From Candidatus Dadabacteria bacterium (GTDB taxonomy: Bacteria; Desulfobacterota_D; UBA1144; Nemesobacterales; Nemesobacteraceae): a stretch of DNA of 57,401 nt. The notes under the pieces were generated by a model. That model searched no databases and was not told the origin of the DNA. It saw nothing but the letters and a program-made list of their open reading frames with translations. The stretch is from positions 1-57,401 of the forward strand of contig VXTZ01000032.1 of assembly GCA_009837205.1 (NCBI GenBank), in the 5' to 3' direction. Position 1 is the first letter of the stretch; every line of letters begins with the position of its first letter. This document shows positions 32,937 through 55,146 of the stretch, in pieces. A program made the translations under genes and the position numbers.

Positions 32937-33191
32937 ATGAAACAGTTTTCTGTGAAAATAGAGGTTAAGCTCAAGCCCGTGGTGCTTGACCCCCAGGGCA
33001 AGGCGGTGCTTAACGCTCTTTCCGGTCTCGGATTCAGCGGGGTCTCAGACGCAAGGGTAGGCAAAGTCGTAGAGCTCACCATGGAGGGCGAATCCGCCGA
33101 GGAGGTAAGCCGCAAAGCGGACGAGATGTGCCGGAAACTCCTTTCCAACCCGGTAATCGAAGATTCTTCGGTAGAGGTAGCGGAAAAATAA
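32937..33191 (+). CDS. purS: Phosphoribosylformylglycinamidine synthase subunit PurS
   Basis: An 84-residue protein with the PurS pattern: an opening V-IEVKLKPVVLDPQGKAV, the central LGFSGVSDARVGKVVEL, and a final MCRKLLSNPVIED. PurS bridges PurQ and PurL in the fourth step of purine synthesis. Its TAA shares one base with the purQ ATG (TAATG), indicating coupling. purL is not in the window. Confidence 0.94.
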   Translation: MKQFSVKIEVKLKPVVLDPQGKAVLNALSGLGFSGVSDARVGKVVELTMEGESAEEVSRKADEMCRKLLSNPVIEDSSVEVAEK

Positions 33192-33904
33192 TGCCAAGTT
33201 TCGGAGTTCTGTTCTTTCCGGGGTCCAACTGCGACCACGACTGCTATCACGCCATAAAAAAAATCCTGGGTCGTCCCTGCGAACTTATATGGCACGAGGA
33301 AACTTCCCTCGAGGGAATAGACTGCATCGTGATACCGGGGGGATTTTCCTACGGAGATTATCTTCGCGCGGGAGCTATATCGCAGTTCTCTCCGGTGGTA
33401 AGCCCTCTCAGGGAACTTGCCGCAAGCGGAGTCCCGGTAATAGGTATATGCAACGGGTTTCAGATTCTTGTTGAATCGGGACTCCTTCCCGGGGCATTTA
33501 TACACAACTCCTCACTGAAATTCGTCTGCAGATGGACAAACGTGAGGGTCGAGGATACCGATACGCCCTTTACCTGTCTTCTCCGCAAGGGAGAAGTGCT
33601 GAAACTGCCGGTCGCAAACGCGCAAGGCAATTTCGTGCTGCCCCCGGACGGGGACGATGCCCGGGAACGAAGAATAGTTCTGCGCTACTGCGGGGAAGGA
33701 GGAGAGCTCAGTGCCGAAGCGAATCCAAGCGGCGCCGAGGACAACATAGCGGGAATCGCCAACAGCCGGGGCAACGTACTCGGGATGATGCCTCATCCCG
33801 AGCGCAGTTTCGAGAGCCTACTAGGCTCAGAGGACGGCAGAAAAATGTTTGAATCCGTGATATCGTGGATAGGGTCCCGGAATGCCGACGGAAAAGCCAT
33901 TTGA
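33191..33904 (+). CDS. purQ: Phosphoribosylformylglycinamidine synthase subunit PurQ
   Basis: The glutaminase subunit, 237 residues, that supplies ammonia to PurL. It begins SFGVLFFPGSNCDHD. The class I glutamine amidotransferase triad is visible: Cys87 in GICNGFQ, and the His and Glu in MMPHPERSFE. I chose ATG 33191 over an in-frame upstream ATG because the family starts at this motif and the TAATG overlap with purS is typical. Confidence 0.95.
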   Translation: MPSFGVLFFPGSNCDHDCYHAIKKILGRPCELIWHEETSLEGIDCIVIPGGFSYGDYLRAGAISQFSPVVSPLRELAASGVPVIGICNGFQILVESGLLPGAFIHNSSLKFVCRWTNVRVEDTDTPFTCLLRKGEVLKLPVANAQGNFVLPPDGDDARERRIVLRYCGEGGELSAEANPSGAEDNIAGIANSRGNVLGMMPHPERSFESLLGSEDGRKMFESVISWIGSRNADGKAI

Positions 33905-33959: not shown

Positions 33960-34199
33960 ATGGACAACACGCAGAGCAAGGAAAAAATAGACATAACTGA
34001 CTACATCTGTCCGATGACGTTTGTTAAAACCAAGCTCAAGCTTGAGCAGATGAAGCGCGGGGAAGTCCTTGAAGTAAGGCTCTGCGAAGGGGAACCTCTC
34101 TCCAATCTCCCGAGAAGCGTGGAACAGGAAGGTCACAAGGTCCTGTCCGTAGAGAAGGAAGAAGGCCGCTACCACAAGGTAATCATCGAGCGCTGCTAA
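33960..34199 (+). CDS. TusA-like sulfurtransferase
   Basis: A 79-residue protein of the TusA/SirA fold, with the active cysteine at Cys17 in the Cys-Pro motif (DYICPMTFVKTKL). TusA-type proteins carry sulfur as a persulfide between donors such as cysteine desulfurase and acceptors. The last base of its TAA is the first base of the next ATG (TAATG), so it is coupled to the cysteine synthase gene. I infer that it hands sulfur to that pathway. Confidence 0.88.
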   Translation: MDNTQSKEKIDITDYICPMTFVKTKLKLEQMKRGEVLEVRLCEGEPLSNLPRSVEQEGHKVLSVEKEEGRYHKVIIERC

Positions 34200-35140
34200 T
34201 GTATAGACCCGAATCCGGAACCCCCGCCGCCGGAGGTTCAAGAGTCGAATCGGTGGTCGACCTTATAGGCAACACCCCCCTTTTGGAACTTTCCGAGACG
34301 GCAAAAGAATGCTCTCCCGGAGTCAGTATTTACGCAAAGGCCGAGTGGTTTAACCCGGGAGGTTCAATAAAAGACCGCCCCGCCCGCAGAATGATCCTGG
34401 AAGCCATCCGCTCCGGCGAACTCACAAAAGACAAGGTCATTATGGACTCCTCTTCCGGGAATACAGCGATCGCGTACGCGATGCTTGGGGCCTCACTGGG
34501 GTACGAGGTTGAAATCGTAACGCCTGAGAACGTAAACACCGAGAGAAAAAAAGCAATCGAGGCCTACGGAGCGAAAACAACCTTCTCAAACCCCCTTGAA
34601 GGTTCCGACGGAGCGATAAGAATTGCTCACAAGCTAAAGGCGGATAATCCTGAGAAATATTTCATGCCTGACCAGTACAACAACATTAACAATCTCCTGG
34701 CTCACTACGAGACGACTGCGCCCGAGATCTGGAAGCAGACAAAGGGTGCCGTGACCCATTTTCTTGCGGGACTCGGCACATCGGGAACCTTCATGGGAAC
34801 CGGGAGAAGACTTAAAGAGCACAATCCCGATATAAAGACAATCGCAATTCAGCCTGAAGAAAGCCTTCACGGACTTGAGGGCATGAAACATATGCCCACT
34901 TCGATAGTTCCAGGCATATACGATGAGGAGGAGGCCGACGAAGTTGTCTTCATCTCGACCGAGAAAGCGTATGAAATGATGGAGCGGCTGATGGATACCG
35001 AGGGGATATTCGTGGGCCACTCGGGAGGAGCCGCGGTCTGCGTAACGCTTGAGTACGCGAAAAAACTGAAAGAAGGAGTGCTCGTGACGATTCTTCCCGA
35101 CTCGGGCAGAAGGTACCTGAGCGAAGGACTCTGGTGGTAA
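34199..35140 (+). CDS. cysM: PLP-dependent cysteine synthase, CysM-like
   Basis: A fold-type II PLP enzyme of 313 residues. Lys58 in NPGGSIKDRPA forms the internal aldimine. The substrate loop is SSSGNTAIAYA, and the phosphate-binding glycine loop is GLGTSGTFMGTGR. The GNTAIAYA form and C-terminal extension resemble CysM-type enzymes, which can use carrier-bound sulfur, rather than CysK. It overlaps the TusA gene upstream by one base and a JAMM protease gene downstream by seven. That order suggests use of protein-bound sulfur, but the acceptor substrate is not proven. Confidence 0.9.
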   Translation: MYRPESGTPAAGGSRVESVVDLIGNTPLLELSETAKECSPGVSIYAKAEWFNPGGSIKDRPARRMILEAIRSGELTKDKVIMDSSSGNTAIAYAMLGASLGYEVEIVTPENVNTERKKAIEAYGAKTTFSNPLEGSDGAIRIAHKLKADNPEKYFMPDQYNNINNLLAHYETTAPEIWKQTKGAVTHFLAGLGTSGTFMGTGRRLKEHNPDIKTIAIQPEESLHGLEGMKHMPTSIVPGIYDEEEADEVVFISTEKAYEMMERLMDTEGIFVGHSGGAAVCVTLEYAKKLKEGVLVTILPDSGRRYLSEGLWW

Positions 35141-35601
35141 AGATATACAGATCGGCCTATCTGGGCATGACACGGGATGCAGAATCCGGTTACCCTTACG
35201 AGGTATGCGGAGTGATGATCGGGAAAGAAGATACCGTCACTCACTTCCGCAAATGCGCCAATCTGGTCGCTGACGACAAATCCGAAACAGCGTTTAAGGA
35301 AACAGCAGACATTGACAGCAAGCGGTTAAGAGACCGTTACGAGCTTGATCCGCGTTCCTACATAGAGGCAGATTCGTGGGCGAGGGAGAACGGTCTTGAG
35401 ATTCTCGGCATATACCACTCGCATCCAGACCACCCTTCGGTACCTTCGGAGACGGACAGGCAGGTGGCATCGCCCGGATGGGCGTATATAATTTTCTCGG
35501 TAAACCGCGGGAAACTCGCCGACGCGAGAATATGGTACATTGACGAGCAAGATTTCCAGTTTGAAGAAAGAAAGTTCGAAGTGCTTAAAAACCCCGACTG
35601 A
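35134..35601 (+). CDS. JAMM/MPN-domain metalloprotease (Mec-like)
   Basis: A 155-residue M67 family protein. The zinc site is complete: Glu23 (EVCGVM), His95, His97, Ser105 and Asp108 in HSHPDHPSVPSETD. Stand-alone bacterial members such as mycobacterial Mec release cysteine from the C-terminus of the carrier CysO. Here the gene is fused by overlap to a CysM-like synthase gene, which fits the same job. The start is a GTG at 35134 inside the end of cysM; an ATG at 35167 is possible but would shorten the fold. Confidence 0.88.
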   Translation: MVKIYRSAYLGMTRDAESGYPYEVCGVMIGKEDTVTHFRKCANLVADDKSETAFKETADIDSKRLRDRYELDPRSYIEADSWARENGLEILGIYHSHPDHPSVPSETDRQVASPGWAYIIFSVNRGKLADARIWYIDEQDFQFEERKFEVLKNPD

Positions 35602-35661: not shown

Positions 35662-37119
35662 ATGAATATGCAGGTTCTGTTTGAAAGTACGCTGGCTATC
35701 CTTCCCGAGTGCGTACTCATACTCGCCGCCCTGCTCATACTCATCTGTGCCCCGATTCTGAAAAAAAGATGGACGGGGTCGCTTTTTCTCCTCGCAATCT
35801 CCGGTACCGTGCTCTCCCTCGTCCTTAACTTCTCCAGGTTCTCCGGCGAAAGTTCCGCGTTCTCCGGCGCATTGGTAATCGATTCCTTCTCCGCCTATTT
35901 CAACTCCCTTTTTCTTCTGGCAGCGCTTGCGACTATCCTTTTTTCAAAAGACCACCTCGAGAAACGCACGCAATGGCTTGAGGAGTTCTACGCGCTTGTG
36001 CTTTTCTGCACGAGCGGGATGATGGTTCTCGCCTCCTCGGTCGAACTCATGACGCTTTTCGTTGGGTTCGAAATCATGTCAATCGCCGTCTACATACTCT
36101 CGGGGTTCAGAAGCAAATCCCTCGACTCGACAGAATCAGGCGTAAAATACCTTGTTCTGGGAGGGTTCTCTTCCGCGGTGCTGCTTTTTGGAATCGCCCT
36201 TCTCTACGGGGCTACCGGTTCCACTTTTCTGGAGGAAATTCTAAAAAGTCCGGGGAATCTTCCGATGTATGTCTGCGGAGCCACCTTTGTTGCAGTGGGA
36301 GTCATTTTCAAGATAGGAGCCGTGCCGCTTCACCAGTGGGTGCCCGATATCTACGACGGAGCTCCCCTCACGGTTACGGGATACATGTCCGTTGCGGTAA
36401 AAGCGGCGGCTTTTGTGCTGCTGCTGAGAATATTTCTCGGTTCCGCTCCGGAATTTGAAAACTACATGACGGCCGCGGTGCAGATTGCGGCGGTGCTGAC
36501 CATGGTAGTGGGAAATATAGCCGCCATATATCAAAAAAGCGTGAAGAGGATGCTCGCCTACTCAAGTGTGGCACACGCTGGATATGCCCTCGTCGGGGTA
36601 GCGGCAGTTCTCTCAGACTCTTCGGTCGGAAGCGGGAGCGTTCTTTATTATCTGTTTGCCTATACTTTTATGAACCTCGGAGCTTTCGGAATCCTTGCCT
36701 ACGCGAGCAGGGAAGGAGACGATTGTGACACTTTCGAGAGGATATCGGGACTCTGGAGCAGAAAACCGGCGGCATCGCTCGCACTTGGAGTATTTATGTT
36801 CTCGCTTGCGGGAATCCCGCCGACTATAGGATTTTTCGGGAAATACAGGGTGTTTTTAGCTGCAGTCGACGCCAATCTGACGCCGCTTGCAGTAATAGGA
36901 ATAATAACAAGCGTAATCTCCGCGTACTACTACCTCAAAGTGCTCGTCTACGCGTTTATGAGGGAAGACAGTTACGGAGCAAGCGCGAACAAACCGCTTT
37001 CGGGGGCTACAATTGCGGTGCTTACCGCAGTCACGGTTTTTTTCGGTATATTTCCTTTCTTGTCATGGGATCTAGCAGCTCAGGCCTCAATCACTCTTCT
37101 CGCCGGAATCGCATTTTAG
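35662..37119 (+). CDS. nuoN: NADH-quinone oxidoreductase subunit N
   Basis: A 485-residue antiporter-like membrane subunit of complex I with about 14 predicted helices. Diagnostic segments include GFEIMSIAVYILSGF, KYLVLGGFSSAVLLFG, FKIGAVPLHQWVPDIYDGAP and KRMLAYSSVAHAGY. The glutamate in GFEIMS and lysines in the central helices belong to the proton path. nuoL and nuoM, which usually precede it, are absent. It follows the JAMM gene by 60 bp with a GGGAGA ribosome site. Confidence 0.95.
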   Translation: MNMQVLFESTLAILPECVLILAALLILICAPILKKRWTGSLFLLAISGTVLSLVLNFSRFSGESSAFSGALVIDSFSAYFNSLFLLAALATILFSKDHLEKRTQWLEEFYALVLFCTSGMMVLASSVELMTLFVGFEIMSIAVYILSGFRSKSLDSTESGVKYLVLGGFSSAVLLFGIALLYGATGSTFLEEILKSPGNLPMYVCGATFVAVGVIFKIGAVPLHQWVPDIYDGAPLTVTGYMSVAVKAAAFVLLLRIFLGSAPEFENYMTAAVQIAAVLTMVVGNIAAIYQKSVKRMLAYSSVAHAGYALVGVAAVLSDSSVGSGSVLYYLFAYTFMNLGAFGILAYASREGDDCDTFERISGLWSRKPAASLALGVFMFSLAGIPPTIGFFGKYRVFLAAVDANLTPLAVIGIITSVISAYYYLKVLVYAFMREDSYGASANKPLSGATIAVLTAVTVFFGIFPFLSWDLAAQASITLLAGIAF

Positions 37120-42709: not shown

Positions 42710-45700
42710 ATGACAGAGTCAAACAAATCTTGCGACTCTTCCGGGGAATCGCTACCCCACTCTGAAACTCAAAAACAGGAAAAATCCGGATTCGGTCCAC
42801 CGATAGCGATCGTGGGCATGGGGTGCCGGTTCCCCGGCGCACCGAGTATACCGGCCTTTTGGCGCCTGCTCGAAGCGGGCCAGAACGTGGTGACGGAGGG
42901 CGTCCCGGGTTCCGGCATCGGGCGTATGGACGAGCTTTTCCCCGATGGACAGATTCCGAGCAAGGCCTGTCGTTTCTGTGCCTATGTCGACGGAATCGAG
43001 CAGTTCGACGCGGGGTTCTTTCGCATTTCTCCGGTCGAGGCCCAGTTGCTGGATCCACAGCAGCGGATGATGCTGGAAACCACTTGGGAAGCTCTCGAGG
43101 ATGCTGGCATGAACCCGGATCGGCTGAGGGGCACCCGCACCGGGGTATACACCGGGATCAGCAACGACGAATACAGGATGCTGGTAGTGGAGTCAAGGAA
43201 ACCTGCCGATGCCGCCTCATGTCTTTATGCTCTGAGCGGCACGAACCTGAACGGTACCAGCGGACGGGTCTCTTTCGTGCTGGGCCTGATGGGACCGGCA
43301 AAGGCAGTGGACGCCGCGTGCGCGTCGTCCATGGTGTCGGTCCACGACGCGGTGGCGGATCTGCAGCAGGGCAAGGCGGATCTGGCCATTGCGGGCGGTG
43401 TGCAGGCTATCCTGAACAGTCGCATATTCGAACTCCGTGCGGATGCGATGATGCTGTCTCCAGACGGGCAGTGCAAGACGTTCGATGCGTCTGCGAACGG
43501 TTACGTGCGCGGCGAAGGTTGCGGCGTCGTTATCCTGAAGCGCCTCAGCGAGGCCGAGGAGGATGGCGATCGGATCTGGGGCGTGATCCGAGGCTCGGCG
43601 GTGAATAACGGCGGGGCCAGCACCGGACTGACCGTACCGCACATCCCCGCACTGGAACAGGTGATGGAAGCGGCCCTGTCCGACGCCGGAGTTTCTGCTT
43701 CAGATGTGGATTACCTGGAGGCGCACGGGACTGGAACAGCTGTAGGCGACCCGATTGAGATCGACGCCGTCTCCGCTGTCTACTGCAAAGGACGCAAAGC
43801 CGATCGTCCTCTTTTGATCGGTTCCGTAAAGACCAATGTCGGCCACCTCGAGTCGGCTGCCGGAATCGCCGGTCTGATCAAGGCGGTGCTGGTGATGCAG
43901 CGCGGCGTGATTCCGAGGCATCTGCACTTCAAGGAACCCAACCCTAGCCTCGATTGGGACCGACTGCCTTTGAAGGTTACTTCGTCCATGATGGACTTAC
44001 CTCAGCGTGGCGGACGGCCGAGACTGGCAGGAGTAAACTCCTTCGGGATATCCGGGACGAACGCCCACATAGTGGTGGAAGAATACATCGCCCCGGGGGG
44101 GTTGCCCTACGGAAAGCATGAGCTTGCGGGCTCAGCCCAGGCGGTGACAGTCTCTCTGCCGGAGGCCGTGGAGAGTTTGCCGTTGCCGGAGCAAGAGTTA
44201 AGGAGGCGCGAGACCCGGTTGCTGCCGCTGTCCGGCAAATCGGTGAACGCACTCCGGGAACTTGCGGAGCGTTACCTCTCATGGCTGGACGAGCATCCGG
44301 AGGATCTTGCTTCCCAAAATGCCTCGGTAGAACCCCTGCTCTCGGACATGGCGTGGACTGCAAGTGTAGGGAGGAGCCATTTTGATCACCGTGCGGGCGT
44401 GGTGTTTCGGGATACTGGATCGCTACGGGAGGGGCTGAAAGCGCTGGGGAATGTGGGCGAGAGTTCAGGCCCGCAAACGGCGACGAAGATAGCGTTCGCT
44501 TATACCGGGCAAGGAAGCCAATGGGCCGGCATGGGAAAGGCGCTCTACGAACGTGAGCCGGTGGCGCGGGCGGTTCTCGACCGCTGTGAAGAGGTGTTTC
44601 GGGCCGAAAGAGGCACCTCGTTGCTTGACGTGATGTTCGGGCGCGGCGAAGGCGATCTGGGCGATACAGCGTGGGAGCAACCGGCACTCTATGCCCTCGA
44701 GTGCGCGCTCACGGCGCTTTGGTCGAGTGTAGGGGTTCGTCCCAGCGTGGTGTTGGGGCACAGCGTCGGGGAACTGGCGGCGGCGCAGGCGGCGGGAGTG
44801 TTCAGCCTGGAGGATGGAATGCGGTTTGCCGCGGCGCGAGGTACCCTGCTGTCGGAAACCGAACCGGGCGCAATGGCAGCAGTTTTTGCCACTCCGGTAC
44901 GAGTGGCGTCGACGGTCGAGGAGCTGAACGAATCATCTGCCAGTGTTGGGGTGAGCATCTCGGCGGACAATGGCACCCACCAAGTGGTGAGCGGACCGGT
45001 TGCAGAAATTGAAATCATCTCGAAGCGTTTCGAATCGGAAGGAGTCCGGGTAAGACGGTTGAACACGCTCCGCGCGTTCCACAGCGCCTTGGTAGAGCCA
45101 GCTCTGGACATGCTGGAAGCTTCCTTGGATAGTGTGGCGATCGATCCACCTTCCCTCACCGTGGTCAGCAATCTGACTGGCCAAGTGGTGGAGCCTGGCC
45201 AAGCGCTGGACGGAGCCTACTGGAGGCAGCATGCCCGCGAGAAAGTGGCATTCGCCCGCGGTGTCCAGACGTTGGCGGAACTCGGAGTGGACTTGGTGTT
45301 GGAGATAGGACCGAGACCGATTCTGGCCACGATGACTCGCTCGGCCTGGCCGGACTCTGTACAGACACCGGCGCCCATGGTGCTGTCGAGCCTGCGCCCA
45401 CCGTCTGGTGAATCCTCAGCGTCCGCGGATGGCGCCGATTTCACGCAGGCTGTCGCGGAAGCGTATCAGGCGGGGCTCCCGATTTGTTTTGAAGGGCTTT
45501 TTGCGGGGGAGGAGCGCCATCGCATCTCGCTGCCAAGCTATCCATTCCAACGCGAACGCCATTGGCTCGATTCGAAGAGAAAACAGCGCTCAGGCGTCGG
45601 CCACCCCTTACTGGGGGTCCGGCACGAATCCGCCACAGGCGAGGTCACATTCGAAACAGAAGTATTCCAGTCGGATCCGGAGTGGTTGAGCGACCACCGG

Positions 45701-48700
45701 GTGTTTGGCCGGGTTATAGCTCCGGGTGCACTCTACGGGGCCATGGCGGCATCGATATCCTTTACGGAAGAAAGCGGCGCGGTGGTTGTGGAGGACATGC
45801 AACTGCTCAACGCGCTGATTTTCCCCGAGGAGGGCTCCGAGGACGATACCGGTGACGAGGGCCGTGAGGTGCAGGTTGTGCTTGATTCTTCCGAGCGGCC
45901 AAATTCGCGTCGTGTCCAGATATTCAGCAAGAGGAGTGGCGAGGACTGGACGGCACATGTGGAAGGCCACATATCGTCGGGCGCCCCCATGCCGGAAGCC
46001 GGTAGCCGCATCGATCTTGAAAGCCTCAAGACCCCCCTGTCACCAATAGACGTGGCAGACTACTACCGCGCCCGGGCGGGTACGGGGATCAATCTCGGCC
46101 CGTTTTTCCGTACGCTTGGGAAGGTCTGGTCCCGGCCAGGCGAGGCGTTAGGCGAGATTTCTTTCCCTGAAGCTCTCGGCCGCAATGAGCTGGACGTTCA
46201 TCCGCTCCTGCTCGACGGTTGCTTTCAGGTTGTGGCCGTAGCGCGCAATCCGGGCGGGATAGAAGAGGAAACCACCTATCTACCATTTGGCTGGGAGCGA
46301 CTGTGGCTGGCAGATCGGCTGCCGGATCACTTGTTCTGTCACGTGCGCATGAGTGAGGTTTCCCAAGGGACAGAAGCGGAACAGGGCGAGCCGCCTGAGG
46401 TCTGGAACGGAGAATTGCGCATCTACGATCCCAACGGGGTTCTGCTTGGCGGGTTGAGCGGATACATGGTGAAACGCGCGACGCGGGCGGCACTGCTCTC
46501 TGCAGGCGAAGGGGTGAATGAACTGCTGTACGAGGTTGTGTGGCGCGAAAAGACTCTCCCGCCCGGAATGCTGTCCGCAGATTTCCTCGCATCTCAGGCA
46601 ACAGTTGCAGCGCGCTCGGGGTTGCTCGCGGATTATTTGGCTGACGAAGGAGTCACGCCCAAAGACAGAAGCGCCCTCCTGACCGACCTAGAGCGGTGGT
46701 CTCGATCCTGCGCGCTCGAGACCTTGGAGAAGCTGGGGTGGGAACGCGAGGTGGGCGTGACCGTGGATTCAGAGGACTTGCGGCAGCGCTTGAACGTCGT
46801 GGAGGAGCATAAGAAGTTGTTCCGCCGGATGCTCGAGATGCTGGCCAAGTCCGGGGTGTTGGAAGAGGTGGACGGCGACTTCGTCGTGAGGATCGGACCC
46901 GGGGATCCCTTGCCGGATGAAATGCCGCCTGACACCGAGAAGTTTGCTACCCGAATGGCTGAGCTATATCCCCACGGCTTGACCGAGATCGGGCTTTTCC
47001 GACGGTCTGGCAACGCCTTGGCAGACATCCTGCTGGGCCGAGCGGACCCGTTGACGGTCCTGTTCAGCAACGGAGACCCGACCCCGGGCGATCTGTATCT
47101 AAAAGCCCCGGTGGCGCGGGCGGCGAACCGTCTACTGCGAGAAACGGTTCAGACTCTTGTGGCGGAGTTGCCCGACGACCGACACCTCAGGGTGATCGAA
47201 GTCGGGGCGGGTACAGGATCGGCAACCGCGGCCATCCTGCCGGAACTCCCGGAAGGACGGTTCGACTACATGTACACGGATATCTCGGCGGGCTTCTTTG
47301 CGGAAGCAGAAGCGCGTTTCGGAGGCGACGAAGCGTCGATAGACTACCGCATGCTGGATATCGAGAAGGATCCGGTGGAGCAGGGATTCGACTCCCACGG
47401 TTATGATCTGGTGATCGCGTCCAATGTGCTGCACGCCACGCGATACCTAGATGAGACGCTTGCGCACTGCCAGCGGCTTCTCGCGCCATCAGGACAGATG
47501 GTCGCGCTCGAGAACCTGAGGGGTATGGGTTGGATGGACCTGACTTTCGGGCCGCTCGACGGCTGGTGGCGGTTCGCCGATGCCTACCGACCGCAACACG
47601 CCTTGGTGGAGCCAGCTGTGTGGCGCCGCATACTCGCTGACGTGGGTTTCGAGGAAATAGAAGTGCTGGGATTGGAAGAGTCCGACTCGACCGGGATGCC
47701 GGATAAGGGCGTGATCGTGGCGCGGGGCCCGGCTGAGGTGACCGAAAGACCGGGCGTCTGGGTTCTAGCGGCAGATAGCGCCGGCGTGGCCAAGGAACTG
47801 GCAGCAGAGTTGGCCGCGCGCAACCAGACAGTCGTGCTGGCGGACCATCAACTCCCGGAGAGCGGGCACTCAGAAATGGACGGGTCCGGCATTGTCCGGT
47901 CAACGGTGGACATGGAGCGGCGCGAGTCGTGGCAATCGCTGTTGGAGTGCCTGCCCGGGGATGCGCCTCTGAGCGGCGTCGTGCACCTCGTGGCGCTGGG
48001 TGGCCACGGACTGAACGCGACAACCGAAGAGATGGCGGAGGACACGAAGCAAGCGATGGCGAGCGCACTGGCGTTGACGCAGGGACTGCTTGACTCCGAT
48101 GTGGTGCCCGAAAACGGAGTATGGTTTCTTACGCGGGGCGCCCAGGTGCTGGAGAAGGAGCTTGGCGGGGAACTTGCCGGCGCGACGCTATGGGGTTTCG
48201 GGAAGGCAGTGGCCCGCGAAGCGGCGCATCTAAAACCGAGGATGATTGACCTGGATCCCACAAAAACGCAGTCGCCTGAACTTCTGGACGAACTGTTGTA
48301 TCCCGACCACGAGAATCACATCGCACATCGCTACGGACGACGGATGGTGGCCCGCCTGGTCCGGGCCGGGACCGACACGGATCGGTTGACATTGCCGGAG
48401 CAGTCGGGCTGGGTGCTGGCTCCGGACCCGGAAGGCATATTCGATAAGCCTTACGTCAAACCGCTGCCGGAACATTCTCTGGAGCCGAAAGAAGTCCGCG
48501 TCGCGGTCGAAGCTGCCGGGCTGAACTTCTGGGATGTATTTCGTTCGCTTGGCTTCATTGAAGAGGAGAACTTAGGAAAGGAGATGTGTGGCCACGTGCT
48601 CGATGTGGGTTCCGAGGTGTCAACCGTCTCGGTCGGCGATCATGTGGTTGGATTGGGGTTCGGTGGTGCGTTCGCGGACGAAATGGTTATACGAGAGGAA

Positions 48701-51700
48701 TTGGTGGCGCCCGCGCCATCGGGAATCTCGGTGACGGATCTCGCCACGGTGCCGAATGTGTTCGCCTCAGCAGCATTCTCCTATGAGCTCTCAGGGTTGG
48801 ACGCTGGCGAACGGGTGCTGATCCACGCGGGTGCCGGCGGTGTGGGACTCGCGGCCATCCAGTTGGCGCGTGCTGTAGGAGCCGAGGTGTATGCCACGGC
48901 GAGCGAGCTGAAGCGGCCATATCTCCGCTCCATCGGTGTGGAGCATGTGTTCGACAGCCGCACGACGAAATTCGGGGAAGAGATCCTCGAGGCTACGGAC
49001 GGAGCAGGAGTCGAAGTGGTGCTGAACAGCCTGACAGGAGAGGGATTTATCGAGGCGAGTCTGTCATGCCTAGCACAGGGTGGCCGGTTTGTGGAATTGT
49101 CTAGGCGGGACATTCTGAGCGAGGAGGAGATGGCCGAAGTTCGTCCCGACGTTGCCTACTCCATCCTGGAGTTGGATGTTTTTAAGAAGACTGATCCGGC
49201 TTGCGTCGGAAAGGTTCTCCGGGAAGTGATGGAGCGCCTTAAGGCGGGAGAACTGAAACCGCTTGTCCACAGCAGGTGGCCCCTGGCCGAAACGGGGGCT
49301 GCATTGAGATTCATGCGATCGGCCCGGCACATCGGGAAGATCGTCGTGACGACACCACCGCTTGTGAGAGGTGGGTTGCGGCAGGACAGGACCTACCTAG
49401 TGACCGGCGGCCTAGGCGGTATTGGGTGCGCCGTGGCCAGCTGGTTGGCGGATCACGGCGCGGGGGCAATCGTGTTGAATGGAAGACGGCCACCGGACCC
49501 CGAAGTTGAAAAAGAAATCGACTCGTTGCGTGAACGCGGGTCCACGGTGAGGGTGGAACTGGCGGATGTGACGGATGCCGCCGCTGTGGACGACATGCTG
49601 GCGCGGATGGATCAGGAACTGCCGCCGCTCGGCGGAGTGATTCACAGCGTGGGAGTGTTGTCGGATGCTTCGCTGTCGAACCAGAGTTGGGAGAGATTCG
49701 AGCAGGTGCTGTGGCCGAAGGTGCTGGGCGCCTGGCACCTGCACCGTGCGACGGCGGACCGCAATCTGGATCTCTTTATCCTCTTTTCAAGCCGAGTTGG
49801 CGTCATGGGTAATCCGGGCCAGGCGAACCACGCCGCAGCCAATGCGTTCCTAGACCAGCTCGCCGCCCACCGGCAGGCGGTGGGACTTCCGGGACAGGCC
49901 ATCGCCTGGGGGGCATGGTCAGAGATCGGCGAAGCGGCGGAACAACGAGACCGGATTGAACGGCAACGAGCGGCGCTCGGCGGCCGCTGGTTTACACCGC
50001 AGCAAGGTCTCAGGGCGTTCGACAGGCTAGTACGCCAAGACGTAACGAATTCCGTGGTGATGTCTATGGACTGGGCAGTTTTTGAGGAGGCTGTCGAAGA
50101 CCGTCCCTCTCTGCTAGAGGACCTGCTGTCCACCAGTTCCAAGGCCGACGCCGACTCGCCCGCTCAGGCGGACGACCTGATGTCCAGGGTGCGAAAGACG
50201 ACTGTGGCGGAACGCGAAGGCATGCTGGTGTCATTCCTGCAGGGGGAAGTGCAGGCAGTTCTGCGACTACCGTCGACGCCGACTCCAACGGTGGGGTTCT
50301 TCGATCTGGGAATGGACTCATTGATGGCAGTAGAACTGAGAAACCGGCTCAATCGAGCATTCGCGGGCGAGTATGTCGTCTCCAACACAGTTGTCTTCGA
50401 CTACCCCGACATCACGACCTTAGCCCACTATCTGGCAGGTGAACTCGGTCAACTGGGCGGGGACGGTGGGACGGCTCCAACGCCCGAAACAGTCGCACCC
50501 TCACCGCGCCCGTCCGTCGCTACTGAGGATGACGACATAGCAATAATCGGCATGGCGTGCCGCTTCCCCGGCGCGAAAAACCTTCTGGAATACTGGAATC
50601 TTCTGGAATCGGGCACTGATGCAGTGACCGACGGACGTCAGGCCGGCGATTCGCCGAGGGACACCTTTGGAGACTCAAATTCCGAGAGCGCCACCCACCT
50701 GCACGGCGCGTTTGTTGAGGGTATCGAGTGGTTTGACTCACGCTTCTTCCGCATTGCGCCGATAGAAGCGCGGATGATGGACCCACGACAGAGAATGATG
50801 TTGGAGACAAGTTGGGAGGCTATCGAAGACGCCGGAATCGCTCCCGACAGCCTACGAGGCAGCCGCACCGGAGTGTATGCCGGAGTCAGTCACAGCGAAT
50901 ACCAACATGTAATTGAAGCCAGCGGTAAGGCTGGCACTTTCCTCGGCCTAATGGCCAGCGTCACCGCCGGGCGGGTCGCATCCGTGCTGGGTCTTGAGGG
51001 TCCGGCAATGGCTATCGATATGGCCTGCGCCTCGGCATTGGTTGCGGTGCATCAAGCCGTCGTTGGGCTACAGCGGGGCGAGGTGGACCTGGCCCTCGCC
51101 GGAGGCGTGCATGCGGCGCTGTCGCGCGACATTTCCAAACTTATGCTGGATGTGGGGATGCTGTCGCCGAGTGGGCAGTGCCACCCCTTTGATGCGTCTG
51201 CGGACGGCTATGTACGCGGCGAAGGTTGCGGAATGCTCATTTTGAAACGACTGAATGAGGCGGAGGTTGACGGCGACCGGATATGGGGCGTCATCAAGGG
51301 TTCTGCCATTAACCAGAACGGGGCCAGCGCGGGATTGACCGTTCCGAACGGCCCGGCACAGGAGCGTGTTATAGAGGAGACGCTTGTTAAGGCGGGCCTC
51401 ACCGGAAGGGATGTTGACTATCTCGAAGCACACGCTACAGCCTCCCAGTTGGGCGACGCAATTGAAGTACACGCGGCAGGCTCGGTGTACGGCAGAGGGC
51501 GCGACGCCGACCGCCCGCTGCTGATGGGCACCGTAAAGTCAAACATCGGATATCTGGAGACGGCGGCGGGCGTTGCCGGCCTGATAAAGGCTGTGCTGGC
51601 AATGAAGCAGGGTATCATTCCGAAACATCTGCACTTCAAGGAACCGAACCCACAAATCGACTGGGACCGGCTGCCCGTGCGGGTGACTTCTGAAAAGACC

Positions 51701-53080
51701 GACTGGCCGCCCCATCCTGACAGGCCGCCACGCGCGGCAGTAAGCGCGTTCGGCATATCGGGCACAAACGCGCATATGGTGGTGGAAGGCTACGGAATCG
51801 CGACAGAGGATAACAGCGCAAGTGCTGGAGTCCAGTCGCTTAGGGGCGCCGCGCGGCAGGTGCCCGTTTCTCTGCCAGAGCCGGTTGCGAGTCTGCCGCT
51901 AGCTGCGGGGGAACTAACGGAGCGCACAGTGCGTTTCCTGCCGCTATCGGGCAAGTCGGACGGCGCCCTGCGGGACATGGCAGGACAGTACCTGTCGTGG
52001 TTAGACAACCATATTGCTGAGTCGTCGCCTGAAGCGCCTGCACTTGCTGACATAGCGTGGACGGCGAGTGTCGGACGCAGCCATTTTGACCATCGTGCCG
52101 CTTTAGTGTTCGGGGATATGCAGTCTCTGCGTGCAGGGCTAACGAAACTCACGAAGACCGACGCTACGCCTGATAAGCCAGATCCACAACCCGTAACAAG
52201 GGTGGCATTCGTGTACACAGGCGAGGGCAGCCAGTGGGTTGGTATGGGCGAGGCGCTGTACAACAGCGAGCCAGTCGTACGCGCTGTTTTGGACCACTGT
52301 GACGCCGTGGTGCGCGCAGAGAGAGGAGCATCGCTGCTCGATGTGATGTTCGGGCGCACCGAAGCAGCGGGCGATTTGAATGATGCCGATTGGGCGCAGC
52401 CAGCTCTCTACGCATTGGAGTGCGCGCTGACGGCGCTGTGGGCAAGCGTTGGGATCCGCCCGAACGTCGCGCTGGGGCACGGCACGGGTGAGATTGCCGC
52501 GGCGCAGGCTGCGGGAGTCCTCACCTTAGAGGACGGACTGCGCTTTGCCTTGACTCGTGGCACGCTGATGGCGGCGCTGCCGGGAGTGGACCCGAACCAA
52601 TCTCTCGACGGTCTGGAAGTGGCATTTGCAGAGAGTGAGGTCTCACCTCCATCCCTGACTCTGGTGAGCGGCGTTACGGGGCAAGTTGTGAATGCGGACA
52701 GCCCGCTAGACGGGGCGTACTGGCGTATGCAGGCGTGCGAGACTGCGGCGTTCAGCGCAGGTGTTTCCACGCTTGCCGAGTTGGGAGTGGATGCAGTGAT
52801 AGAGATTGGCCCCGGCGCGGTACTGGGGCCGCAGGTGAATCCCGAATGGCCGGACTCGTCAAACGGAAAGGAAGCCACCACTTCACCACTCGTGCTTGCG
52901 AGCCTGATGCGACCATCCGACGAGGATTCACAGGAGCGCAGTACCGGTTTTGCGGAGGCGGTTGCAGGGGCATACGATGCGGGACTGGCACTTTCCTTTG
53001 AGGGCATGTTCGCCGGGGAATCGCGCCGCCGCATCTCGCTGCCGAGCTATCCGTTCCAGCGCAGGCGTCACTGGGTGTAA
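42710..53080 (+). CDS. Reducing C-methylating type I polyketide synthase with an appended degenerate KS-AT
   Basis: A 3456-residue megasynthase. Order: KS1 (29-460; Cys204, His339, His379), AT1 (594-900; Ser685 in GHSVGE, His791 in RAFHS, malonyl-type), DH (about 955-1240; His996, Asp1169), C-methyltransferase (about 1330-1660; VGAGTG at 1498-1503), structural pseudo-KR, ER (1905-2215; AGAGGVG near 2040), KR (2228-2420; GGLGGIG near 2233), ACP (Ser2537). Then KS2 (2609-3030) and AT2 follow, ending at the post-AT linker. KS2 keeps Cys2773 and His2908 but has Tyr2948 where GHLE has His. AT2 has Gly3258 for the Ser and lacks about 70 residues including the His. KR has His2374 where Tyr is usual. 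There is no thioesterase. The first module matches the order reported for sponge-symbiont sup PKSs. A methyl-branched reduced acyl product is inferred. Confidence 0.93.
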   Translation: MTESNKSCDSSGESLPHSETQKQEKSGFGPPIAIVGMGCRFPGAPSIPAFWRLLEAGQNVVTEGVPGSGIGRMDELFPDGQIPSKACRFCAYVDGIEQFDAGFFRISPVEAQLLDPQQRMMLETTWEALEDAGMNPDRLRGTRTGVYTGISNDEYRMLVVESRKPADAASCLYALSGTNLNGTSGRVSFVLGLMGPAKAVDAACASSMVSVHDAVADLQQGKADLAIAGGVQAILNSRIFELRADAMMLSPDGQCKTFDASANGYVRGEGCGVVILKRLSEAEEDGDRIWGVIRGSAVNNGGASTGLTVPHIPALEQVMEAALSDAGVSASDVDYLEAHGTGTAVGDPIEIDAVSAVYCKGRKADRPLLIGSVKTNVGHLESAAGIAGLIKAVLVMQRGVIPRHLHFKEPNPSLDWDRLPLKVTSSMMDLPQRGGRPRLAGVNSFGISGTNAHIVVEEYIAPGGLPYGKHELAGSAQAVTVSLPEAVESLPLPEQELRRRETRLLPLSGKSVNALRELAERYLSWLDEHPEDLASQNASVEPLLSDMAWTASVGRSHFDHRAGVVFRDTGSLREGLKALGNVGESSGPQTATKIAFAYTGQGSQWAGMGKALYEREPVARAVLDRCEEVFRAERGTSLLDVMFGRGEGDLGDTAWEQPALYALECALTALWSSVGVRPSVVLGHSVGELAAAQAAGVFSLEDGMRFAAARGTLLSETEPGAMAAVFATPVRVASTVEELNESSASVGVSISADNGTHQVVSGPVAEIEIISKRFESEGVRVRRLNTLRAFHSALVEPALDMLEASLDSVAIDPPSLTVVSNLTGQVVEPGQALDGAYWRQHAREKVAFARGVQTLAELGVDLVLEIGPRPILATMTRSAWPDSVQTPAPMVLSSLRPPSGESSASADGADFTQAVAEAYQAGLPICFEGLFAGEERHRISLPSYPFQRERHWLDSKRKQRSGVGHPLLGVRHESATGEVTFETEVFQSDPEWLSDHRVFGRVIAPGALYGAMAASISFTEESGAVVVEDMQLLNALIFPEEGSEDDTGDEGREVQVVLDSSERPNSRRVQIFSKRSGEDWTAHVEGHISSGAPMPEAGSRIDLESLKTPLSPIDVADYYRARAGTGINLGPFFRTLGKVWSRPGEALGEISFPEALGRNELDVHPLLLDGCFQVVAVARNPGGIEEETTYLPFGWERLWLADRLPDHLFCHVRMSEVSQGTEAEQGEPPEVWNGELRIYDPNGVLLGGLSGYMVKRATRAALLSAGEGVNELLYEVVWREKTLPPGMLSADFLASQATVAARSGLLADYLADEGVTPKDRSALLTDLERWSRSCALETLEKLGWEREVGVTVDSEDLRQRLNVVEEHKKLFRRMLEMLAKSGVLEEVDGDFVVRIGPGDPLPDEMPPDTEKFATRMAELYPHGLTEIGLFRRSGNALADILLGRADPLTVLFSNGDPTPGDLYLKAPVARAANRLLRETVQTLVAELPDDRHLRVIEVGAGTGSATAAILPELPEGRFDYMYTDISAGFFAEAEARFGGDEASIDYRMLDIEKDPVEQGFDSHGYDLVIASNVLHATRYLDETLAHCQRLLAPSGQMVALENLRGMGWMDLTFGPLDGWWRFADAYRPQHALVEPAVWRRILADVGFEEIEVLGLEESDSTGMPDKGVIVARGPAEVTERPGVWVLAADSAGVAKELAAELAARNQTVVLADHQLPESGHSEMDGSGIVRSTVDMERRESWQSLLECLPGDAPLSGVVHLVALGGHGLNATTEEMAEDTKQAMASALALTQGLLDSDVVPENGVWFLTRGAQVLEKELGGELAGATLWGFGKAVAREAAHLKPRMIDLDPTKTQSPELLDELLYPDHENHIAHRYGRRMVARLVRAGTDTDRLTLPEQSGWVLAPDPEGIFDKPYVKPLPEHSLEPKEVRVAVEAAGLNFWDVFRSLGFIEEENLGKEMCGHVLDVGSEVSTVSVGDHVVGLGFGGAFADEMVIREELVAPAPSGISVTDLATVPNVFASAAFSYELSGLDAGERVLIHAGAGGVGLAAIQLARAVGAEVYATASELKRPYLRSIGVEHVFDSRTTKFGEEILEATDGAGVEVVLNSLTGEGFIEASLSCLAQGGRFVELSRRDILSEEEMAEVRPDVAYSILELDVFKKTDPACVGKVLREVMERLKAGELKPLVHSRWPLAETGAALRFMRSARHIGKIVVTTPPLVRGGLRQDRTYLVTGGLGGIGCAVASWLADHGAGAIVLNGRRPPDPEVEKEIDSLRERGSTVRVELADVTDAAAVDDMLARMDQELPPLGGVIHSVGVLSDASLSNQSWERFEQVLWPKVLGAWHLHRATADRNLDLFILFSSRVGVMGNPGQANHAAANAFLDQLAAHRQAVGLPGQAIAWGAWSEIGEAAEQRDRIERQRAALGGRWFTPQQGLRAFDRLVRQDVTNSVVMSMDWAVFEEAVEDRPSLLEDLLSTSSKADADSPAQADDLMSRVRKTTVAEREGMLVSFLQGEVQAVLRLPSTPTPTVGFFDLGMDSLMAVELRNRLNRAFAGEYVVSNTVVFDYPDITTLAHYLAGELGQLGGDGGTAPTPETVAPSPRPSVATEDDDIAIIGMACRFPGAKNLLEYWNLLESGTDAVTDGRQAGDSPRDTFGDSNSESATHLHGAFVEGIEWFDSRFFRIAPIEARMMDPRQRMMLETSWEAIEDAGIAPDSLRGSRTGVYAGVSHSEYQHVIEASGKAGTFLGLMASVTAGRVASVLGLEGPAMAIDMACASALVAVHQAVVGLQRGEVDLALAGGVHAALSRDISKLMLDVGMLSPSGQCHPFDASADGYVRGEGCGMLILKRLNEAEVDGDRIWGVIKGSAINQNGASAGLTVPNGPAQERVIEETLVKAGLTGRDVDYLEAHATASQLGDAIEVHAAGSVYGRGRDADRPLLMGTVKSNIGYLETAAGVAGLIKAVLAMKQGIIPKHLHFKEPNPQIDWDRLPVRVTSEKTDWPPHPDRPPRAAVSAFGISGTNAHMVVEGYGIATEDNSASAGVQSLRGAARQVPVSLPEPVASLPLAAGELTERTVRFLPLSGKSDGALRDMAGQYLSWLDNHIAESSPEAPALADIAWTASVGRSHFDHRAALVFGDMQSLRAGLTKLTKTDATPDKPDPQPVTRVAFVYTGEGSQWVGMGEALYNSEPVVRAVLDHCDAVVRAERGASLLDVMFGRTEAAGDLNDADWAQPALYALECALTALWASVGIRPNVALGHGTGEIAAAQAAGVLTLEDGLRFALTRGTLMAALPGVDPNQSLDGLEVAFAESEVSPPSLTLVSGVTGQVVNADSPLDGAYWRMQACETAAFSAGVSTLAELGVDAVIEIGPGAVLGPQVNPEWPDSSNGKEATTSPLVLASLMRPSDEDSQERSTGFAEAVAGAYDAGLALSFEGMFAGESRRRISLPSYPFQRRRHWV

Positions 53081-53120
53081 CTGAGGTGCCGTGTCACGGA
53101 GAAAACTAGAGAAAAATCGA

Positions 53121-53149
53121 TTGACCCAAGCGCCTATGTATTGTATCAT
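53121..53149 (+). promoter_or_regulatory. Strong sigma70-type promoter for the ACP-PPTase-hydrolase operon
   Basis: TTGACC (53121-53126), 17-bp spacer, TATCAT (53144-53149). The predicted start is near 53156. The downstream ribosome site AAGGAGG (53177-53183) lies 9 bases before the ACP ATG. The local sequence is much more AT-rich than the PKS gene. The three downstream genes can thus be expressed independently of the PKS transcript. Confidence 0.65.
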
Positions 53150-53192
53150 TGTGTTCTAACATCTTAAATTTTTTAAAAGGAGGACTGTAATT

Positions 53193-53438
53193 ATGGCTTC
53201 AGTTGAAGAGCGACTAAGACAACTTGCGGACGAAAACCTGGAGGTAGACGGACAGCCGGTAGGCCAGTTGCTGGACCCGGACAAGGGCCTTGCTGATGTA
53301 GGTGTTTCCTCTATGGACGCAGTGTCATTCGCCAAAGTGCTAGAATCGGAATTCAACGTCTCTCTCCTTCCCGGAAAAGCCGGGGAGATCAAGACTATTG
53401 GAGAGTTGATAGCGTACCTGGAGGCCAACGCCTCTTAA
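53193..53438 (+). CDS. Stand-alone acyl carrier protein
   Basis: An 81-residue four-helix carrier protein. The phosphopantetheine site is Ser40 in VGVSSMDAVSFAKVLE; the usual Asp before the serine is Ser39. The rest (ESEFNVSL, TIGELIAYLE) is ordinary for an ACP. It has its own promoter and an ideal ribosome site, so it should be made in excess over the giant PKS. It may shuttle the starter or finished chain, or work with the second KS-AT. The PPTase gene that would activate it begins 32 bp downstream. Confidence 0.9.
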   Translation: MASVEERLRQLADENLEVDGQPVGQLLDPDKGLADVGVSSMDAVSFAKVLESEFNVSLLPGKAGEIKTIGELIAYLEANAS

Positions 53439-53470
53439 CACCTCTTCGCTGTAGAGGTAACCGGCATCTG

Positions 53471-54244
53471 ATGTCCGTTTCTGCCGCAAGGCGCTGGTGG
53501 AGTTCCTTCCATAAAGCTGGTTCCGTTACCGTCATGCATGTAGACCTGACTCCTAACGCCAGCCGTGAGACATCATCTTTGTTGTGGCTGAACGAGGAAG
53601 AACAGATGCGCTGTCGCCAATATCCGCTCCCAGGTCCTCGTCGCAGGTTTGCTCTGTGTCGTGCCGCGCTTCGGGCTATCCTCTGTCGCCAGCTCGGTTG
53701 CGGCAATGAACGCCTCAGCTTCGGCTCATCTGACCATGGAAAGCCGTTCGCACTAGTAGACGAGGAACCGGCAGCCATCAGCTTTAACCTCAGTCACAGC
53801 GGAAAGCACGGCTTGATAGCTTTTGTTCCCCATGGACGTCTGGGCGTGGATGTGGAGGAGTGCGTCCCCCGAAGGGATTTTGACGAACTGAGCGAAGCCG
53901 TGTTCGGTCCTCATGAACAGTCCGCCCTTGCATGCTTACGCGGATCGGATAGGGCTCAGCTATTCTTCAGACTCTGGACCATCAAGGAAGCCCTGATCAA
54001 GGCTCTTGGTCTAGGTTTTACCCTTGATGTGTCTCAGTTTGAGGTGCCACAAGCCTTGCAGCGGGGGAAAATGAGCATGTTCCGCTTCCCACAGCTGCCG
54101 GAAGTACACTGGCGCGTCGAATACATCGGCAACGAGGATTTCTCAGCAGCCATCGCGCACGAACTTGTCCCGTCCCAATTGGGCGAGCGGTCATTACAGC
54201 GGCTAAGCGGTGACGTGTCAGAAAAACGAGGAATTTGCCAGTGA
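53471..54244 (+). CDS. Sfp-type 4'-phosphopantetheinyl transferase
   Basis: A 257-residue enzyme that transfers phosphopantetheine from CoA to carrier-protein serines. Motifs in order are GKPFA (about 90), FNLSHSGKHGL (105-114), GVDVEE with Asp127 and Glu129 as metal ligands, and the WTIKEALIKALG helix with Glu173. The length is typical for Sfp-type PPTases that serve PKS and NRPS carriers. Its stop overlaps the hydrolase start (GTGA). It should activate both the PKS ACP (Ser2537) and the stand-alone ACP. Confidence 0.93.
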   Translation: MSVSAARRWWSSFHKAGSVTVMHVDLTPNASRETSSLLWLNEEEQMRCRQYPLPGPRRRFALCRAALRAILCRQLGCGNERLSFGSSDHGKPFALVDEEPAAISFNLSHSGKHGLIAFVPHGRLGVDVEECVPRRDFDELSEAVFGPHEQSALACLRGSDRAQLFFRLWTIKEALIKALGLGFTLDVSQFEVPQALQRGKMSMFRFPQLPEVHWRVEYIGNEDFSAAIAHELVPSQLGERSLQRLSGDVSEKRGICQ

Positions 54245-55146
54245 CTTCAGAAATCGTATGGGAGGTACCTGAACCGCTTTCCACTCACGATGTCCGCGTG
54301 GACGACGAAACCGTCATTACGCTGCGGCAACATGGAAACCCGTCGGGACCGCGGCTCGTTCTGAGCCACGGCAACGGTCTCGCAACCGACCTTTATTACC
54401 CGTTCTGGTCACTCCTAGTCGACGATTTCGACCTTATAATCTACGATCTCAGAAACCATGGCTGGAACCCGGTAAGCGGTCTTGAAAACCATAGTCTTCC
54501 AACATTGGCTCAGGACAACGACACCATTCTTGAGGCTGTCGACCTTCACTATGGAGCAAAGCCCAGAATAGGTGTGTTCCACTCAGTTGCGGCTCTGGCG
54601 ACTCTGCTATCACCCAAAAAGGGCGGCGACTTTGCAGCCCGGGTCCTGTTCGACCCGCCTGTCTGCAAACCTGGCCGGAGCTTTAAGGATTATGAAGATA
54701 TCGCAAAACGTATGGCCAAAACGATCCGTCAAAGCACAAGTCAGTTTAAAACCACGCAGGAACTTGTGGACATTCTTCCTTACATTCCAGCCTGGCAGCA
54801 CGTGGTGCCAGGGGTATTCGACCTTTACGCAAGAACAACCCTGCGTGAGCGTGCGAATGGAGAGGGGTATGAACCTCGCTGCCCTCCTGAGTACCAGGCG
54901 CAATTAATAGAGTACGCCAGCGCCTTCGCCGTACTCGTGGACTTTCAGTCGCTACTCTGCCCGACAAAGGTCATCGGGGCTGACCCGACCTTGCCATACT
55001 CATACCTGCCGACGCTCGACCTGAGCGATATGTCCACCGTAGATTACGACTTTCTGCCTGACACTACGCACCTTCTTCTTTTGGAAAAGCCGCAGGAATG
55101 CGTCAGGTCCATGCTTGAGTTCATCGAGCCGATTATCACTACGTAA
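54241..55146 (+). CDS. Alpha/beta hydrolase
   Basis: A 301-residue hydrolase. An oxyanion-loop motif SHGNGLATD is near residue 43, the likely nucleophile is Ser115 in GVFHSVAALA (not the strict G-x-S-x-G), and the C-terminal catalytic His lies in PDTTHLLLLEKP. I start at GTG 54241, with GAGGAA 7 bases upstream and a four-base overlap with the PPTase stop. A TTG six bases earlier has poor spacing. As the PKS lacks a thioesterase, this enzyme is a candidate for product release or editing, but that is inference from position. Confidence 0.85.
   Translation: MTSEIVWEVPEPLSTHDVRVDDETVITLRQHGNPSGPRLVLSHGNGLATDLYYPFWSLLVDDFDLIIYDLRNHGWNPVSGLENHSLPTLAQDNDTILEAVDLHYGAKPRIGVFHSVAALATLLSPKKGGDFAARVLFDPPVCKPGRSFKDYEDIAKRMAKTIRQSTSQFKTTQELVDILPYIPAWQHVVPGVFDLYARTTLRERANGEGYEPRCPPEYQAQLIEYASAFAVLVDFQSLLCPTKVIGADPTLPYSYLPTLDLSDMSTVDYDFLPDTTHLLLLEKPQECVRSMLEFIEPIITT

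Follow-up and report, generated by a model that had tools for sequence, protein, structure and literature searches.

The locus described here raised the question of how a CysM-like cysteine synthase and a JAMM protease could work when the only sulfur carrier encoded beside them was a TusA-like protein. The window, that is, the whole stretch of DNA that was analysed, was a 57,401-nucleotide contig of a Candidatus Dadabacteria genome. A preliminary description of its sequence had reported three overlapping genes encoding TusA, CysM and a complete JAMM protease, had seen no ThiS/MoaD-like protein, and had offered two readings: either TusA fed a carrier encoded elsewhere, or it filled the carrier position in a variant route without CysO. 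Pfam searches and reading of the sequence confirmed that the three genes were present, intact and overlapping; coordinates, Pfam assignments and motifs all agreed (Table 1). The tusA and cysM genes shared 1 nt (TAATG), and cysM and the JAMM gene shared 7 nt.

Table 1. Genes of the cassette and its flanks, with positions in the window
Feature	Length	Position	Strand	Evidence or remark
PurS, upstream flank		32937-33191		precedes PurQ
PurQ, upstream flank		33128..33904	+	upstream neighbour kept in the phylum
TusA-family protein	79 aa	33960..34199	+	PF01206, E 4e-20
CysM-like PLP cysteine synthase	313 aa	34199..35140	+	PF00291, E 1e-68
Prok-JAB/JAMM metalloprotease (Mec-like)	155 aa	35134..35601	+	PF14464 (Prok-JAB), 83 bits
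NuoN, downstream flank		35662..37119	+	directly after JAMM in the source genome

The PurQ entry in the table is the longest reading frame, which overlapped PurS; since most homologues aligned from residue 22, the true start of PurQ lay near 33191. Elsewhere in the window (42710-55146), the genes for a phosphopantetheinyl transferase and an alpha/beta hydrolase came after that for a large type I polyketide synthase with the domains KS-AT-DH-MT-ER-KR-ACP and a second KS-AT.

The missing carrier was found on another contig. The preliminary description had called for a genome-wide search for a ThiS/MoaD/CysO protein with a di-glycine end, and in the source genome (1.69 Mb, 35 contigs, 97.4% complete) this search returned exactly one ThiS/MoaD-family gene (PF02597), located on contig C14, with the cassette on C32. 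Thus, the statement that no such protein was present held for the window and failed for the genome. The gene (L002, 9910-10182) encoded a CysO of 90 aa that ended in IIPAIAGG followed directly by the stop codon, without a tail. Its best PDB matches, aligned up to the final GG, were the M. tuberculosis CysO (3dwg_C, E 1.3e-20) and the ThiS/MoaD protein 4n6e (E 4e-19). A gene for threonine synthase (TIGR00260 at 280 bits, above the cut-off) preceded it by 74 nt. A third contig, C35, encoded a MoeZ-type protein of 382 aa that combined an E1 domain (ThiF, 281 bits) with a rhodanese domain (74 bits); it was the sole MoeZ/MoeB-type E1 of this genome. In M. tuberculosis, thiocarboxylation of CysO has been shown for MoeZR (PMC3227635). 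The genes for CysO, MoeZ and the cassette were mutually unlinked and formed three loci. Thus, the apparent absence of CysO was an artefact of the window: all parts of the CysO/CysM/Mec system were in the genome and linkage alone was broken. A position of CysO beside CysM and Mec is typical in actinobacteria, is no functional requirement and did not hold in the source genome. Contig C14 also carried, near 112 kb, a module of three genes for an E2-like, an E1-like and a JAB-domain protein (L004, 211-2597) matching the PADLOC E2, E1-E2 and JAB models; this was a second, separate ubiquitin-like system, possibly related to defence.

The co-occurrence of the carrier with the cassette, another check that had been proposed, was then followed across the phylum. 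Among 58 Dadabacteria genomes, CysO was present in 56 (including 43/43 near-complete ones), JAMM in 52, orthologous CysM in 51 and TusA in 43, these counts being of related genomes and not of independent events. The presence of a GG-ending CysO on C14 and of MoeZ on C35, together with the near-universal CysO of the phylum, supported the first of the two readings, in which TusA feeds a carrier encoded elsewhere. The usual gene order was purS-purQ-tusA-cysM-jamm, with tusA and cysM adjacent in the TusA-bearing genomes examined, and TusA was accompanied by CysM and JAMM in 43/43 cases. Adjacency of the CysM and JAMM genes persisted through the phylum, even where TusA was lost. The dN/dS ratios of the cassette genes (approximately 0.07-0.09; median for TusA within the genus 0.09 by a simple pairwise estimate) indicated purifying selection. 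With the gene set and its adjacency conserved across the phylum and dN/dS low, what could arise by chance was far exceeded.

The phylum also contained informative deviations from the usual order. Families f2, f3 and f7 usually had a rhodanese-less E1 between the JAMM gene and nuoN, and 21/21 genomes with this operon E1 had TusA. The operon E1 was absent from the source genus, where MoeZ alone remained and TusA was still under purifying selection. Nine small genomes of family f8 kept JAMM without TusA, eight of them also keeping CysM, and the junctions read in f8 genomes of two genera revealed that TusA was gone from between purQ and cysM. TusA was not essential to the core, and its loss may have been tolerated because the MoeZ rhodanese could substitute for it. 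Three near-complete genomes (G001, G019 and G020) retained CysO and had no match for TusA, JAMM or orthologous CysM; either these are gaps in the assemblies, or the cassette was lost and CysO has a second role. In one further genome (G026; L051, 10716-11888), cysM and the JAMM gene were separated by an inserted ORF that by eye resembled an IS605-type OrfB/TnpB.

We propose a CysO-dependent route to cysteine, by way of a protein thiocarboxylate, of which the cassette is probably the enzyme part; the genes of this route are spread over three loci, and TusA would have a role in it. That the CysO-MoeZ-CysM-JAMM core serves as a cysteine route appears likely from the sequences. The parts, their intact motifs, their conservation and their linkage could be read directly, and from here on we infer the chemistry and the order of steps. 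Sulfur, probably from the sulfite reductase encoded in the source genome or from another reduced inorganic source, would be bound as a persulfide on TusA and/or on the MoeZ rhodanese. MoeZ would adenylate the GG end of CysO, leading to its thiocarboxylate. CysM would form aminoacrylate, probably from O-phosphoserine, and its reaction with CysO-COSH would give CysO-Cys, from which the Mec-like JAMM protease would free cysteine and regenerate CysO. For net synthesis of cysteine, the sulfur should not itself derive from cysteine. Several points counted against this explanation: the loci were unlinked, the source genus had no dedicated rhodanese-less E1, the nine f8 genomes lacked TusA, G001, G019 and G020 lacked the cassette, CysM scored below the cysM equivalog cut-off, Arg220 of the M. 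tuberculosis enzyme was replaced by lysine, and a CysK-like paralogue was also encoded.

The C-terminus of CysO varied across the phylum. It was read in 50 genomes (L055-L084, L272-L291), and SI(I/V)PAIAGG was found in 50/50; 22 proteins stopped at GG and 28 extended 1-22 residues beyond it, with unconserved tails (I, L, FR, RW, CQ, LLVS, KKQF and others). A tailed CysO should need trimming before adenylation, and trimming of carrier tails by JAMM proteases is known from the HcyS/HcyD and QbsE/QbsD pairs. A JAMM needed only for such trimming was considered and rejected for the source genome, whose CysO had no tail. Moreover, G001 and G054 had CysO tails (KKQF and VN) and no JAMM match, which weakened the case for JAMM as the only trimmer. 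More tentatively, Dadabacteria CysO might be a tailed precursor trimmed by the operon JAMM ahead of sulfur loading, so that this protease would serve both maturation and cysteine release, with TusA in place of a rhodanese feeding persulfide to the dedicated rhodanese-less E1; the tail and this E1 would have been lost in the source genus, where MoeZ took over.

Once CysO had been found, the main question was the function of the extra TusA. Its predicted persulfide cysteine, C17, was located in a CPMT motif rather than CPxP, and in the alignment CPMT was invariant across the phylum set and followed by (F/Y/S)(V/I)KT. The protein had neither a GG end nor a conserved C-terminus. Its C-terminal cysteine was rejected as a functional site because it was confined to the source genus and a few relatives, the residue being mostly R, S, T or N elsewhere. 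The same TusA subtype was widespread, with at least 517 relatives retrieved by a pattern that favours CPM. In Bacteroidales it was encoded near a rhodanese-less E1, JAMM and cysteine synthase within sulfur-assimilation clusters, and in some Alphaproteobacteria, such as Reyranella, it had no E1, JAMM or cysteine synthase neighbours. The best direct link between this subtype and CysO was a locus from a groundwater deltaproteobacterial MAG (L204). Within approximately 6 kb, it encoded TusA and a CysO fused to a NIL domain together with a CysK-type synthase, threonine synthase, sulfite reductase and two E1 proteins. In the fusion (6328-6843), the GG was buried inside the protein at approximately residues 90-91, so that cleavage would be needed for it to act as a thiocarboxylate carrier.

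It was reported in 2006 that operons with a rhodanese-less E1 contain SirA/TusA (PMC1779556), and the E1 and TusA arrangement of families f2, f3 and f7 matched this pairing of SirA for rhodanese. We found no paper on the combination of TusA with CysM, JAMM and CysO. We lean towards TusA donating persulfide sulfur at the E1/CysO step, probably acting upstream of CysO rather than replacing it as the carrier. Its partner was uncertain because the dedicated rhodanese-less E1 was missing from the source genus.

Alternatively, TusA could act in a different sulfur relay, for example one that serves MnmA in tRNA thiolation or one that serves a cofactor, and be cotranscribed with CysM and JAMM for regulation only. 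MnmA was present, this TusA was the only one that the genome search detected, the eight f8 genomes dispensed with TusA while keeping CysM and JAMM, and the alphaproteobacterial members of the subtype left room for other roles. However, the genome had no match to the DsrE family of TusD-type proteins (0 for PF02635, the one family of Tus relay partners searched), TusA was never found without CysM and JAMM in the phylum, and its Bacteroidales relatives kept company with E1, JAMM and cysteine synthase. Since neither another TusA nor a DsrE-family protein was detected, the E. coli tRNA relay was not present in its known form, and we consider a separate relay unlikely, if still the most credible of the alternatives. 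The preliminary description had named two findings that would together count against its own proposal. One was made, as a CysO elsewhere did explain the JAMM protease; the other, a TusA solely for tRNA thiolation, was unlikely because no DsrE-family protein was found, TusA was tied to CysM and JAMM, and in other phyla the subtype clustered with genes for sulfur assimilation and thiocarboxylates.

It was less likely still that CysM was an ordinary sulfide or thiosulfate sulfhydrylase, with JAMM and CysO engaged elsewhere, for instance in the maturation of CysO, in tRNA thiolation or in modifying proteins. The enzyme kept the PLP lysine (K58 in PGGSIKDR, aligned with K51 of M. tuberculosis CysM), and its top NCBIfam model was cysM (TIGR01138) with 346.6 bits, below the cut-off of 394.2. 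In favour of the sulfhydrylase, it was as near to E. coli CysM (40% identity) as to M. tuberculosis CysM (38.6%, rounded to 39%), the latter reference having been checked by an end-to-end match to PDB 3dwg before use, and CysO persisted in genomes without the cassette. On the other hand, CysM and JAMM stayed adjacent through the phylum, also where TusA was lost. Moreover, CysE was not detected in the source genome by a search that matched in 14/14 control genomes, leaving no obvious source of O-acetylserine. The failure to detect CysE points to O-phosphoserine as the probable CysM substrate, and together with the sulfite reductase it fits a CysO/CysM/Mec route in which O-phosphoserine is used. 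The position aligned with Arg220 of M. tuberculosis CysM carried lysine in 36/36 readable motifs, out of 47 distinct CysM sequences of the phylum; it could not settle the use of O-phosphoserine because arginine is also found there in E. coli CysM, an enzyme that uses O-acetylserine, and a literature search on Arg220 found nothing. The C-terminal WW was shared by 46/47 of these sequences. The JAMM protease had a complete zinc motif (E23, H95-S-H97-P, S105 and D108; EVCG ... HSHPDHPSVPSETD), its HSHP...S..D part was found in 48/48 distinct phylum sequences, and its nearest solved relative was 2kcq (E 1.5e-17).

The second reading of the preliminary description, in which TusA replaces CysO and passes sulfur straight to CysM, had the tusA-cysM adjacency in its favour but was highly improbable and would leave the JAMM protease without a substrate, TusA having no suitable C-terminus and its role as the carrier being rejected because of the CysO of the same genome, which nearly all relatives shared, and because of the survival of CysM-JAMM without TusA.

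Under the preferred CysO-dependent reading, this uncultured phylum probably has, as a standard way of making cysteine, a route of which mycobacteria offer the best-known example; in the single genome searched for the textbook CysE step, it was undetected. Across Dadabacteria, the sulfur donor of CysO also seems to change in a natural series, from TusA with a rhodanese-less E1, to TusA with MoeZ, and then to MoeZ alone. This series bears on the sulfur source for CysO, which the authors of the MoeZR study gave as unknown (PMC3227635). The variable CysO tails are a candidate case of the processing of ubiquitin-like precursors by a JAMM protease.

Among known systems, the closest was CysO-CysM-Mec(-MoeZR) of Mycobacterium tuberculosis, with which the source genome shared a CysO with a GG end, a PLP-dependent CysM, a complete JAMM and MoeZ with E1 and rhodanese. 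In contrast to it, the Dadabacteria genes occupied three loci, TusA was part of the CysM-JAMM operon, CysO lay beside threonine synthase, no ClpS was a neighbour, and Arg220 of CysM was replaced by lysine. Thiocarboxylate-dependent methionine synthesis in Wolinella (HcyS/HcyD/HcyF) reportedly relies on a ubiquitin-like carrier first made with extra residues beyond GG, an E1, a JAMM protease and O-acetylhomoserine sulfhydrylase as the synthase. The likeness lay in the delivery of sulfur to an amino acid by carrier, E1 and JAMM and in the tailed carriers of many Dadabacteria relatives, whereas the source genome had a cysteine synthase and an untailed CysO. The E. coli-type TusA relay for tRNA thiolation differed in its DsrE-family partner (PF02635) and in having CPxP instead of CPMT. 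Class 4c of Iyer et al. 2006 comprises ThiS/MoaD, E1 with rhodanese, JAB and cysteine synthase (PMC1779556); the same four functions were present in the source genome, including the fusion of E1 to rhodanese, but they did not form one operon and TusA was added. Class 4e comprises ThiS/MoaD, JAB, E1 without rhodanese, SirA and sulfur assimilation (PMC1779556). It shared with our cassette the association of TusA/SirA with JAMM and, in the 21 relatives from families f2, f3 and f7, the rhodanese-less E1; the source genus, however, had no operon E1 and kept only the E1 with rhodanese, and the operon contained a cysteine synthase and no sulfate-reduction genes. As a whole, the system is largely ordinary: a known cysteine route in a variant that includes TusA and whose genes are dispersed.
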